Source: a virus. Taken from it: 20,683 nucleotides of DNA. Made by a program: the position numbers and the translations under genes. The first letter of the stretch is position 1. Every line of letters starts with the position of its first letter. Below are positions 3,789 to 20,074 of the stretch, piece after piece. The notes beneath the pieces are model-generated. The model was not told the origin of the DNA. It saw only the letters and a program-made list of their open reading frames with translations, and ran no database searches. The DNA lies in IMG/VR virus record IMGVR_UViG_3300046011_001425, positions 1 through 20,683 of that record; one strand, given 5' to 3'.

Positions 3789-4619
3789 TTAGGGCTCTCC
3801 TATAAATACTGATAAAATTTCAGTATTTCCGCTTTTTAATATATTTTCATTCACAGCAAAGCTACTATACTCTCTTAGTATACGTTGTTCTGTGTCTCTT
3901 GCATGCTTACCAATTACGTACTCTTTTAACCACAATAGTCTCATATTAAAAGTAACCCAATCTTTCCCGAATCTTTTTCGTATATCACTATTATTAGTTA
4001 TCCCTATTTTAAAATAGATTTCTCCGTTATAGATTAACTCTACAAAATATAAATACCCCATTAGATTTGGTTTGAAGCCAGATACAGCACAAGCAGGGCA
4101 TCTAGTACCTTGTATAAAATTATCTGGCGCAACTAACCATTCATGACCACATACGATATGTTTGTGTTTTATTGGTGTGCCTGACTTTATATAAGACTCC
4201 AGTACTTCATAACCTTCAGGTATTCTTGATAAATAATCTGTTTTAGTACGGGAAATATTGTAACAGTTAGGACATCTAGTACCTTGGTTTATACTCTTAG
4301 GGGTAATTAACCATTCATGGCCACATAATGTATGTTTATGTAGAGCATGCTCAGTAATTTTAGTGTACTCCCCCAACAGTTCATAATCCTCGGGTAGTTG
4401 TTTGAGGTACACATTTTTAGTTGTACTCATGGACATAGTGTAGCAATTTTTGCACCCCATACCTCTTAATATATCACAAGGCCGGGCGTACCATATATTT
4501 CCACACAAACATTCGTGTAGTATTTTAATATTAGAACCTTTATACTGTTCAACCGGCCAGTATAAAGATTCCTTAAACCACAGTTCTGATTCATATTGTT
4601 CATGAGTTTTCTTTTTCAT
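3789..4619 (-). CDS. Putative homing endonuclease: three zinc repeats plus C-terminal GIY-YIG-like domain
   Basis: A 276-residue protein with no structural-protein character, lying between the tape measure gene and a minor tail gene. Three repeats of about 58 residues each carry a Cys/His pair, a Trp, and a closing C-x2-C: HECLCGNIW...CKNC (about 35-59), HTLCGHEW...CPNC (96-119) and HIVCGHEW...CPAC (154-177). They should fold as small zinc ribbons or treble clefs that bind DNA. Residues about 189-276 hold YLYFVEL, YFKIGIT, RKRFGKDW, DTEQRIL and SGNTE, the order of elements in GIY-YIG/T5orf172-like nucleases, although the canonical GIY...YIG letters are degenerate. It is paralogous to the protein at 19226-20074, sharing CAVSG, LYFV, GITN, DWV.F and SGNTE. 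AAAGG precedes the ATG. Cleavage activity and target are inferred, not seen. Confidence 0.75.
   Translation of the reverse strand: MKKKTHEQYESELWFKESLYWPVEQYKGSNIKILHECLCGNIWYARPCDILRGMGCKNCYTMSMSTTKNVYLKQLPEDYELLGEYTKITEHALHKHTLCGHEWLITPKSINQGTRCPNCYNISRTKTDYLSRIPEGYEVLESYIKSGTPIKHKHIVCGHEWLVAPDNFIQGTRCPACAVSGFKPNLMGYLYFVELIYNGEIYFKIGITNNSDIRKRFGKDWVTFNMRLLWLKEYVIGKHARDTEQRILREYSSFAVNENILKSGNTEILSVFIGEP
4093..4339 (-). repeat. 174-bp-spaced internal direct repeat in the endonuclease gene
   Basis: Zinc repeats 2 and 3 of the endonuclease gene are still recognisable as DNA repeats. CATCTAGTACCTT occurs at 4099-4111 and 4273-4285, and AACCATTCATG then CCACATA occurs at 4135 and 4309, all exactly 174 bases (58 codons) apart. 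Copies run roughly 4093-4165 and 4267-4339 and diverge between the conserved blocks. The matching protein text is CGHEWL...QGTRCP.C in both copies. Confidence 0.7.
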
Positions 4620-15521: not shown

Positions 15522-16907
15522 TTAGGAACCTTTGTACTGAAGGCCCCAAACTGAAGTTGCGTTGGTGATAAGTTCTGTGAATCCAACACGTTGTGAACCA
15601 ACAAGAACTGTACGCTGGTTTGCAGTCTCGTAGTCACTTTCCATACGCATACCACGTAGACGGGGAACAACAAAGTTACGTGTGTTAACCGCTAGTGCGT
15701 GGTACTTAGATACTGCTGGTGTTGCGAACTCATCGCAGACCATAACCTTAGAGCCGAAGATAGATCCTACTTCACCAGTCATCTTAGTACCCATGTTTTG
15801 TACTTGTGTCCAGTCTTGGAAGTCTGTGTCTTCTAGTAGTTCGTAGTAGCCTCTTAGAGAAACAACGAACGATACGTCAGTAGGATTCACACCGTACTTA
15901 CCTAGGTTCTTACGAGCAGCTAGTAGTTGGTCTCCAGTTAGTACGTACGAAGCATACGCAGTAGCAGACTGAGTTGTACGTGACTGAGTAGAGGCAAGCT
16001 TTACTAGACCATTAAAGATACCTGAAGTATAAGCACCGTCTGCGTGGTTACCAGCTAGAAGAGCATTTTCCATACCACGTGCGTGTGAACGAACGATCGA
16101 CTCACGGATAAGCGGTAGAATTGGTAGAATTGCGTCTTCTTCAGTTTCGTTACCTAGGTACGACTGAGAGATTAGCTTGTAGGTTTGCAGAGTGATTTCG
16201 CCAAGGTCAAGACCACCGTAAGGAGATCCGAATGTATCACCACGTTGTGCTAAGTTACCATGTGGTGAAGAACCAGCAGCTGTTTGCGATGTAGTGAATT
16301 CTGCGTAACCTGAGTCAGGCATGATAGGCACGATTTGTGTTGCCGAACGCATTTGGATTTCACGGAATAGAGGAGCTAGAACCAGCTTTAGCTGAATATC
16401 GCGCTCTAGATTAGTAGAAACTTCTTGTTCAAAATCAGCAGAGCTAACTTGTAGACCAGAATGTTCGTTAACCTTGTTCATTACGCCCTTACCAAAGTCC
16501 GTATTGAGTGTACCCTTACGAGTAGCTAGACCAAGAATAACTGCGTCTTCTACTTCTGCAGATAGAGACTTGTTTGTCTTCCAATCTCCAGAACCACCGT
16601 TACCACCAAATTGACGCTTACTGTCGCGCATCTTTGTTAGTTCTTCAGCTTGTGCCTTAATATCTGCCATACCGGCTTCAAGAATCTTAGCAACGTCTGC
16701 TTCACGAACAGCCATCTTTGCTTCTAGATCAGCGTATAGACGCTCTGCACCTGAAGTTAGGCCGGATGTAACAGCTGTCTTAATTGCTTCATCGGCTGCT
16801 GCTTTTTCTGCTGCTGCGTCGGCTACTGCCTTATTAGCTGCACGTTCGTCGGCAACTGCCTTAGCTGCTGCTGCTTCCGCGATTTTCTTGATTTCTTCGG
16901 GATCCAT
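15522..16907 (-). CDS. Nested major capsid precursor from an internal start (predicted)
   Basis: An in-frame ATG at 16907 (residue 196 of the fusion, MDPEEIKK) is preceded by GGAGAA with a 7-base spacer, a better ribosome site than that of the full-length frame. Translation from here would give a 461-residue capsid precursor that starts exactly at the coiled-coil delta-like domain. That domain then spans about 100 residues before the Gly-rich junction (KRQF then GGNGG). HK97's delta domain is also about 100 residues. This would let the phage make many capsid subunits and few protease-bearing fusions, as HK97-type assembly needs. Inferred from sequence; both products would share the same C-terminus. 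Confidence 0.55.
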   Translation of the reverse strand: MDPEEIKKIAEAAAAKAVADERAANKAVADAAAEKAAADEAIKTAVTSGLTSGAERLYADLEAKMAVREADVAKILEAGMADIKAQAEELTKMRDSKRQFGGNGGSGDWKTNKSLSAEVEDAVILGLATRKGTLNTDFGKGVMNKVNEHSGLQVSSADFEQEVSTNLERDIQLKLVLAPLFREIQMRSATQIVPIMPDSGYAEFTTSQTAAGSSPHGNLAQRGDTFGSPYGGLDLGEITLQTYKLISQSYLGNETEEDAILPILPLIRESIVRSHARGMENALLAGNHADGAYTSGIFNGLVKLASTQSRTTQSATAYASYVLTGDQLLAARKNLGKYGVNPTDVSFVVSLRGYYELLEDTDFQDWTQVQNMGTKMTGEVGSIFGSKVMVCDEFATPAVSKYHALAVNTRNFVVPRLRGMRMESDYETANQRTVLVGSQRVGFTELITNATSVWGLQYKGS

Positions 16908-17492
16908 TATTTTATTCTCCATAGATGCGTTCGCATCACTTAGTGTGGTTTCTTCTGGTTCGGAAGCATTTACTTCTTCGTCAGTAAGGTACACTTTTTT
17001 AAATTCGTCATATTCATTCGTGCTAGCAAATGATTTTGCCACAGAGAATAGAGCTGTTTGGTTGCATGGAACAGATACTACAGAGATTTCTAGTAGTTCT
17101 GCCTGTTTAATAATAAAACCATCTGTGATTTTATTGTAGTCCATTTTCTTAGGCAGAAATCCTACAGAAAAGGTTTTTAGTACACCCTGCTTTATTAGGT
17201 CGTAAGTTGATCCTGCTGCTTTAAATATTTGAGCAGTAACCAATAGTCCTTCAGCTACAACTTTTATATCAATAACCTTACCAATTGGTGTATTATAGTT
17301 ATGATTAAATAGTACTACTGAATTTTTGCGGTAGTTATCTAAACCACCATCCCAAGCAGAATGCAAAATTATATCGCCAGCTCTATCTACACTATCTGTA
17401 CTAGCTAGCCCGGTGATTGTAATACTCTCCGAACCATCCTCATCTGTATCAATAGTTTTAAACTGGCTGAAAAGCTCAAGCATGTTTTTCAT
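15522..17492 (-). CDS. Prohead protease / major capsid protein fusion (HK97 type)
   Basis: A single 656-residue frame joins two genes that are usually separate. Residues 1 to about 165 are a prohead protease (S78-like): ITGLASTDSVDRAGDII, then VVLFNHNYNTPIGKV with candidate catalytic H64, LKTFSVGF with candidate S109, and LLEISVVSVP with E135. Residues about 196-295 are an Ala/Glu/Lys-rich coiled coil like the HK97 delta (scaffold) domain. From about 296 (GGNGGSGDW) to the end is an HK97-fold capsid domain, with MPDSGYAEFT, the GGLDLGEITL strand, and the C-terminal FVVPRLRGMRMESDYET segment. The protease would cut off the delta domain during prohead maturation, probably near residues 292-297. 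The start overlaps the previous gene by 17 bases and has a weak ribosome site. A strong internal start at 16907 may yield capsid alone. Confidence 0.9.
   Translation of the reverse strand: MKNMLELFSQFKTIDTDEDGSESITITGLASTDSVDRAGDIILHSAWDGGLDNYRKNSVVLFNHNYNTPIGKVIDIKVVAEGLLVTAQIFKAAGSTYDLIKQGVLKTFSVGFLPKKMDYNKITDGFIIKQAELLEISVVSVPCNQTALFSVAKSFASTNEYDEFKKVYLTDEEVNASEPEETTLSDANASMENKIMDPEEIKKIAEAAAAKAVADERAANKAVADAAAEKAAADEAIKTAVTSGLTSGAERLYADLEAKMAVREADVAKILEAGMADIKAQAEELTKMRDSKRQFGGNGGSGDWKTNKSLSAEVEDAVILGLATRKGTLNTDFGKGVMNKVNEHSGLQVSSADFEQEVSTNLERDIQLKLVLAPLFREIQMRSATQIVPIMPDSGYAEFTTSQTAAGSSPHGNLAQRGDTFGSPYGGLDLGEITLQTYKLISQSYLGNETEEDAILPILPLIRESIVRSHARGMENALLAGNHADGAYTSGIFNGLVKLASTQSRTTQSATAYASYVLTGDQLLAARKNLGKYGVNPTDVSFVVSLRGYYELLEDTDFQDWTQVQNMGTKMTGEVGSIFGSKVMVCDEFATPAVSKYHALAVNTRNFVVPRLRGMRMESDYETANQRTVLVGSQRVGFTELITNATSVWGLQYKGS
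16905..16920 (-). promoter_or_regulatory. Internal ribosome binding site and start codon inside the protease/capsid frame
   Basis: The minus strand reads GGAGAA-TAAAATA-ATG at 16920-16905, an optimal Shine-Dalgarno sequence and spacing. It falls exactly at the border between the protease and the delta/capsid parts. A second in-frame ATG overlaps the GGAG at 16922 but has no comparable upstream site. Confidence 0.65.
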
Positions 17493-17703
17493 TTGCAGTC
17501 TCTACGGCCACTGTGGGCTCTGTGAGACTCTTTCGTCTCTTTCTAGCGTTTATGTACCTTAGAGCTCCAGACCATGATCCAAAGGCTTTTTTGATTACAC
17601 TAGAATTTACTGGAGTATCTGCTTTCTTATACTCCGATAGTGATACTTCTCCATGTTTCTCGAAGTAAGCTTCTAGTAGATCAATTAGTTTTGTTCTTGT
17701 CAT
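17476..17703 (-). CDS. Small DNA-binding-like protein (homing-endonuclease-associated repeat pattern)
   Basis: A 75-residue protein wedged between portal and protease/capsid, overlapping the portal by 23 bases and the fusion gene by 17, which argues that it is a real, coupled gene. Residues 1-55 read KLIDLLEAYFEKHGEVSLSE, then TPVNSSVIKKAFGSWSGALR. The FGSW..AL signature and two-helix layout fit the homing-endonuclease-associated repeat (HNH-repeat, a helical DNA-binding module). The tail KRRKSL is basic. The ribosome site is weak. No nuclease residues are present, so it may be the remnant of an endonuclease, or a small DNA-binding protein now fixed in the head operon. Function unknown. Confidence 0.6.
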   Translation of the reverse strand: MTRTKLIDLLEAYFEKHGEVSLSEYKKADTPVNSSVIKKAFGSWSGALRYINARKRRKSLTEPTVAVETANEKHA

Positions 17704-18874: not shown

Positions 18875-19238
18875 GTTTCTCCTTCTGGAGTTTAACCCAG
18901 TTCATCTGTTTTTTGGCAGTCCCTAGTCCAGGACTCTTTGCAAAAATTTTGTGTAAGCAATTATGATGGTGATGGTGGCATAAAGTAACAGTTGCATCAA
19001 ACAGCTCGTACTCGTGCTCAGAAATAAACTCATCCCTAAAAGAAATTACTTGCTCGTTTGTATCTGCTTTATACCCCTTTTTGCGTAACCATCTATCTAA
19101 CAAAGGGGTGAGGCTATAATAATGATGAAAATCAAGGTCCTCTGTAGACTTACATATCTCGCATTCAACACCTTTATTGTATCGACTCTTCGCCTTATCT
19201 CTCACAAATTTCACCGCATCCCTAATTAAACCGGACAT
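18861..19238 (-). CDS. HNH endonuclease
   Basis: A 125-residue protein with an HNH signature: CEIC (C26, C29), DFHH (H38, H39) and LCHHHHHNCLHKIF (C87 to H96, with N93). The two Cys pairs should hold a structural zinc, and the His/Asn/His set forms the metal-dependent active site. In HK97-like phages an HNH protein beside the terminase genes takes part in DNA cleavage during packaging, so this may be a packaging accessory nuclease rather than a selfish element; a homing role is also possible. The start is inside the last 13 bases of the upstream endonuclease gene, with GAGAGGA 6 bases before the ATG. The gene then overlaps the portal gene by 14 bases. Confidence 0.85.
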   Translation of the reverse strand: MSGLIRDAVKFVRDKAKSRYNKGVECEICKSTEDLDFHHYYSLTPLLDRWLRKKGYKADTNEQVISFRDEFISEHEYELFDATVTLCHHHHHNCLHKIFAKSPGLGTAKKQMNWVKLQKEKHGVV

Positions 19239-20074
19239 GGTATTTCCTCTCTCATGGTCTCTGTATTTCCTGAAATTAACAGATTTCTATTAACTAATAT
19301 ATGTTTATAATTTTTTAATAGGCCCTGTTCAACAGTATAAGCAATTTTCCCATTAGGGAAATCTATTTGCCAAACTACCTCTATACCGAACTTAACCCAG
19401 TCCGATTTAAATCTTTCTCGTACAGTTTTATTAGTTATACCTACTTTAAATAAATCTTCACTTATTTTCACAAAATACAGCGTAGTGGGTTCATTGTATT
19501 TTAACCCTGATACCGCACAGGAAGGGCACCCACCGTTATGCTCTAATATATCATTTGGTCTTATATCCCAAATATACGAACATTTAGTACACTGATGGGC
19601 TGTTTTAGTTAAAGCACTAGTATAAGAACCTACTAGAGTATATTTTGTACCTAACAATTCCTTTATATATGTTTCTTCCGATTTTCTAGTAGTGGCCCAG
19701 CATTTTGTACATGCTATTCCATTCTGTAAGATGCTTCTTGGCTCTGCCATCCACTCACTAGAACAATGCTTACACTTATGTAATATTTTGGTGTGTGCAT
19801 TAATATAAGGTTGTAATGAATAACAGCCTTTAGTTTCTAGTTCCTTTTTATATTGTTCGTTAGATTTAGTACATACGTAAACTTTATTGGGACACTTAGG
19901 ACATTTATCTTTAGAAGCTTTTAATAAGATAGTTGGGGTAGTATTCCACATATAGCCACAAACACATAAATGATTGAGCTTAGTATTGTTGGTAGAGTAT
20001 ACTCCTATAACTTTTAAGTTTGGACGCAACAATTTTAGTTCTTTTTTATACTGATCTGTAGTTTTACGTTCCAA
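19226..20074 (-). CDS. Putative homing endonuclease: three zinc repeats plus C-terminal GIY-YIG-like domain (TTG start)
   Basis: A 282-residue protein between terL and the HNH gene. Three tandem repeats each begin with a Y-x-x-EL motif and hold two Cys pairs: C37/C39 with C58/C61, C101/C104 with C122/C125, and C162/C165 with C183/C186, each with a W and a P between the pairs. This implies three zinc ribbons for DNA recognition. Residues about 198-282 carry TLYFVK, LFKVGITN, VRERFKSDW, YTVEQGLL and SGNTE, a divergent GIY-YIG/T5orf172-like layout. Paralogue: 3789-4619. The start is TTG at 20074, chosen because AGGAG lies 7 bases before it, an in-frame stop is close upstream and the next Met is at residue 42. 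It has its own promoter. Homing is inferred from architecture and placement. Confidence 0.75.
   Translation of the reverse strand: MERKTTDQYKKELKLLRPNLKVIGVYSTNNTKLNHLCVCGYMWNTTPTILLKASKDKCPKCPNKVYVCTKSNEQYKKELETKGCYSLQPYINAHTKILHKCKHCSSEWMAEPRSILQNGIACTKCWATTRKSEETYIKELLGTKYTLVGSYTSALTKTAHQCTKCSYIWDIRPNDILEHNGGCPSCAVSGLKYNEPTTLYFVKISEDLFKVGITNKTVRERFKSDWVKFGIEVVWQIDFPNGKIAYTVEQGLLKNYKHILVNRNLLISGNTETMREEIPCPV

Follow-up and report, generated by a model that had tools for sequence, protein, structure and literature searches.

Prohead I of phage T5 contains 775 copies of the capsid protein pb8, which are cut by pb11 (PMC5292684). In the T5 family (Demerecviridae) the protease and the capsid protein are encoded by two genes with a stop between them, whereas the virus locus analyzed here carries homologs of both in one frame. 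Nested products of a single gene region are known from phage lambda, in which an in-frame internal start in gene C gives Nu3, an assembly protein that lacks the protease and has the identical C-terminus, and from the herpesviruses, in which UL26 and UL26.5 yield a protease-scaffold and a scaffold-only product with a common C-terminus. The part shared by the lambda products is scaffold only, whereas the part shared at the present locus includes the capsid protein, and, unlike here, the herpesvirus products come from separate transcripts and the capsid protein lies outside the frame. In the capsid gene of Gifsy-2 (NF045540 class), a protease, a middle region and the capsid also share a single frame, and an SD-like GAGGAG, followed after 9 nt by an in-frame ATG, is located 3' of the protease, as in our locus; the Gifsy-2 protease is Clp-like and unrelated to the S78 protease studied here. 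Protease-capsid fusions, Gifsy-2 among them, are already known (PMC9671004, PMC6606914), and a literature search of incomplete coverage found papers on such fusions, none of which reported an internal start.

The stretch of DNA analyzed, referred to below as the window, is a virus record of 20,683 bases. Its head gene was aligned with 161 fused loci. These came from scans of viral sequences (two) and of genomes (one); four contigs are present twice (L080/L085, L063/L097, L065/L161 and L078/L164), leaving ~157 distinct contigs. The genome scan gave one relative, located in a Gammaproteobacteria MAG, for which the bin-based host assignment is weak. The features of the window gene are as follows:

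15522-17492, minus strand: fusion gene for prohead protease, scaffold (delta) and HK97-fold major capsid protein, 656 aa
16908-17492, minus strand: S78 prohead protease domain and linker, residues 1-195, with H64 and S109 invariant in 162/162
16915-16920, minus strand: internal Shine-Dalgarno GGAGAA
16905-16907, minus strand: internal ATG (residue 196), predicted start of a 461-aa, 49.5-kDa capsid precursor
16476-16907, minus strand: delta (scaffold) domain, residues 196 to ~339, mainly helical, its end inferred from the mature T5 capsid alignment
15525-16475, minus strand: mature capsid part, ~residues 340-656, T5 pb8-like by phmmer and Foldseek
17476-17703, minus strand: 75-aa ORF that matches HNH_repeat below the cut-off and overlaps the fusion start by 17 nt at its 3' end

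A first-pass annotation had described a 656-residue frame carrying a prohead protease and an HK97-like capsid domain, and both were recovered in a single frame: 656 codons run without a stop, Peptidase_S78 covers residues 17-157 (E 8.5e-15; Pfam score 55.7 against a cut-off of 21) and Phage_capsid covers residues 373-638 (E 1.4e-8; above the Pfam cut-off). The fusion scores 60.8 bits with the HK97 prohead protease model TIGR01543 (cut-off 59), and H64 and S109, which from family knowledge we take to be the catalytic residues, are unchanged in all 162 aligned sequences, so that the profile and the conserved His and Ser alike place it among the HK97-type (S78) prohead proteases. The window differs from all 161 other aligned fused loci at two positions, having S58 in place of P and K116 in place of D. 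A phmmer comparison of the capsid part with T5-type structures gave matches to 8ho3 (E 6e-52) and 5tjt (E 6e-44), and Foldseek with an AlphaFold2 model of the fusion, of modest confidence (mean pLDDT 65), returned the DT57C and T5 capsids as top matches; the capsid part is thus of the T5 (pb8) type by both sequence and fold. The model showed a beta-rich N-terminal domain, a low-confidence stretch at residues 169-198, long helices beyond residue 198 and a capsid fold, and helices after the internal start were predicted at residues 198-238, 248-262 and 264-290. The alignment of the mature T5 capsid with the fusion begins at residue 341, which corrects the length of the delta or coiled-coil region from the ~100 residues given in the first-pass annotation to ~144. 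The computed masses are 71.0 kDa for the full-length product and 49.5 kDa for the predicted internal product, comprising residues 196-656.

Genes neighboring the fusion also match T5, namely portal, head completion, tail terminator, a pb9-like distal tail protein and the p140 family. In addition, two genes with CapR/treble-clef zinc-finger matches were seen at 3789-4619 and 19226-20074 (both minus strand), one weakly matching T5orf172 (GIY-YIG-like), the other an endonuclease PHROG; by these matches they are likely free-standing homing endonucleases within the structural cluster. The best cultured relatives of the fusion are T5-family phages, which match it in two pieces at ~34-38% identity and, where annotated, have separate protease and capsid genes. 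The separate capsid genes of phiR201, D239, Kamaji, AAS21, River4, DevonBitter and RP7 encode precursors of 460-474 aa, compared with 461 aa here, and in the alignment the first residue of each of these precursors falls at the internal Met of the window. The protease and capsid genes of phiR201, Kamaji and RP7 share a frame and are separated by a stop. The capsid starts of T5-family phages are often preceded by GGAG or AGGA.

The protease/capsid junction of the window reads TCT ATG GAG AAT AAA ATA ATG GAT, in which the arrangement GGAGAA-7-ATG reported earlier at the protease border (16920-16905) is found exactly, with the spacer at 16914-16908. The ATG at 16922 (ATGGAG), though in the usual start column, was rejected in favor of 16907 because it has no upstream motif and because that Met is missing in L087-L093, which retain the GGAG and the later ATG. 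Counting against the site is its spacing, as the 9 nt from GGAG to ATG in the window clade exceed the common 6 nt. We consider it highly probable that in this T5-like phage the head gene is nested and yields two products from one frame, a protease-free capsid precursor and a protease-bearing subunit. Initiation at 17492 would give the 71-kDa protease-delta-capsid protein, and initiation at 16907 would give the 49.5-kDa delta-capsid precursor, the equivalent of T5 pb8. Because the capsid C-terminus is common to both products, the fusion could co-assemble with the precursor, become incorporated into the shell and carry the protease into the prohead, where the protease would cut off the delta domains and, probably, free itself from its tether.

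The full-length start had been described as having a weak ribosome site. This holds in the window, where the anti-SD duplex is -2.9 kcal/mol at the full-length site and -6.4 kcal/mol at the internal site, and the latter is also accessible (mean unpaired probability 0.69, compared with 0.43 on average); it does not hold for the family, since among 32 representatives the pairing was better at the internal site in 17, better at the full-length site in 13 and equal in 2. The argument from a weak full-length start is therefore not general, and for the same reason the product ratio may vary among relatives. Translation of the full-length product may, moreover, be coupled to that of the 75-aa ORF, because the two overlap. 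We also weighed a reading in which ribosomes initiate at both sites but most capsid subunits are the full-length fusion, the internal product being a minor, tuning one. The AAGGAGG-type sites at the full-length starts of several relatives and the 13 representatives just mentioned point that way; nevertheless, the better pairing and greater accessibility of the internal site in the window, and the hundreds of protease domains that would be packed in the shell, which seems unlikely, lead us to regard it as unlikely.

The first-pass annotation had proposed to see whether relatives that share the fusion retain the internal GGAG and ATG. They do: GGAG, AGGA or GAGG is present 4-11 nt 5' of an in-frame linker ATG in 162/162 sequences (the window and 161 loci), so that, as in lambda C/Nu3, a conserved in-frame ribosome site and start are located 3' of the protease. 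All 161 fused loci are stop-free within the frame. The linker around the internal start is otherwise variable, with 36 different hexapeptides preceding the internal Met among 73 representatives at 95% identity, and the motif occurs in varying codon phases (CAG GAG, ACG GAG, ATG GAG, TTC GGA GAA, TCA AGG AAA). Of the 63 Glu codons at -3 from the internal Met, 60 are GAG, compared with 27% GAG gene-wide (P = 1.5e-30, binomial, with relatives treated as independent though they are kin). Among the 32 representatives (at 85% identity) the motif was present at the internal site in 32/32, before other in-frame ATGs in 32/420 (7.6%) and before out-of-frame ATGs in 57/887, a comparison that is partly unblinded, as the site was picked in the linker as the motif-preceded ATG, and in which this choice of the best ATG inflates the motif counts somewhat. 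When synonymous codons were shuffled with the residues fixed, the motif survived in 20% of draws on average, and the product over 13 representatives at the 75% level was 10^-10.6; since these motif statistics treat kin sequences as independent, they serve as supports and not as exact probabilities. Judged from these alignments, the conservation at the junction is of nucleotides more than of residues. This bears on the alternative that the full-length fusion is the sole product and that self-cleavage in the linker yields the capsid precursor, the motif being the protease site. An active-looking protease with invariant H64 and S109, covalently tied to its own substrate, would suit such a scheme, as would the fact that prohead proteases cut their own capsid proteins, but the diversity of the junction residues, the retention of GGAG or AGGA across codon phases and the preference for GAG over GAA all tell against it, and we judge it very unlikely. 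In support of the nested gene, a single substitution would turn any of 630 linker codons in the 32 representatives into a stop, yet all frames are open; both the fusion and the internal start therefore seem to be preserved. The conservation together of the catalytic residues, the open linker and the internal start argues that both products matter.

A third viral scan, which used the T5/fused alignment, gave further fused genes, and overall the internal site is kept in ~200 relatives. Some of these genes (L201-L212) are closer to T5 and have AAGGA or GAGGA 5' of an ATG at the protease/capsid border, while in L213/L214 the site is further downstream, with GAGGA before a Met leaving a 454-aa product. 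The distant fused clades among L201-L252 have a site except for L232, in which only a weak purine run was found. The fused frames of L233 and L234 are open for 1,028 and 938 codons, compared with the usual ~690, the extra part being N-terminal. Fused L201 reads TAAGGAAATCCAAGATATG, which resembles TAAGGAAATCCTAAAAATG, found 5' of the capsid gene in TS3, where that gene is separate. A tree built from 37 capsids has all 14 split forms on one side of a single branch, and midpoint rooting, by which the root is not established, places the split clade within the fused forms. An alternative in which the capsid gene was once separate, fused with the protease gene and left behind a start that is no longer used is extremely improbable. 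In its favor, the capsid gene of the T5-family relatives is separate and starts at this position, and three of them have both genes in the same frame; a relic, however, would be expected to decay in so variable a linker, whereas the site persists in 162/162 sequences and in the distant L201-L213 and L229, and the midpoint-rooted tree, its rooting not being established, nests the split clade in the fused ones. Two T5-sized viral contigs, L203 (108,868 bases) and L206 (108,151 bases), carry a fused gene. Among the fused forms these lie nearest to the split T5 clade, as seen for L203 in the tree, and would be useful for asking whether the two genes of T5 derive from a fused one.

Other protease-capsid fusion families were sampled rather than surveyed, and their counts are descriptive. 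Most sampled members of NF045541, of the Clp-type Gifsy-2 class and of the actinophage fusions have an internal site. In the NF045541 prophage fusions, an SD-like site and an in-frame ATG soon after the protease were found in 24 of 25 sequences, several of which come from the same genomes; in L268 the internal site was not found by the anchor used. These fusions join an S78-like or annotated protease to a capsid, but their capsid and protease lineages differ from those of the window, which scores 47 bits with the NF045541 model against a cut-off of 525 and is not a member. Clp-type fusions with a site include Gifsy-2, Eeyore, mEp460_ev081, Solano and 4 of 5 genome loci, with a spacing of mostly 9-10 nt; because residues are conserved there too, selection on the nucleotides is less clear in these sequences. 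The internal site is also present in the fusions of LPPA33, RcKemmy, RcSwan, B8b and Microcystis yong2, whereas by a strict test the motif is weak or absent in PY223 and Vibrio 1.050.O, and in Pd_22F a GGAG is located before a TTG, or 11 nt before an ATG. Among actinophages, the fusions of Hunnie, Kels, Root, Adaia, Anseraureola, Publix, Naby, Barebow and Schiebs have the site, which in Schiebs lies further downstream than in the others. Together, the conservation among the fused relatives, the alignment with the T5 capsid start and these other families support the initial proposal of a nested gene whose internal start would make the capsid precursor.

We lean slightly toward the view that phage protease-capsid fusion genes generally have an internal ribosome start immediately 3' of the protease, that this start arose or was retained in four or more protease/capsid lineages (T5-like S78, NF045541 S78, the Clp-type Gifsy-2 class and the actinophage fusions), that genes annotated with one product would each make two, and that the separate genes of T5 may be the split form of a nested ancestor. 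A nested start would be a simple answer to the question of how phages with a protease-capsid fusion avoid attaching a protease to each subunit, and in that case a second product has probably been missed in the annotation of many deposited fusion genes. Because cultured phages (Gifsy-2, Microbacterium EE and Arthrobacter AN) carry similar sites, the ratio of protease to capsid protein in the prohead becomes directly testable.
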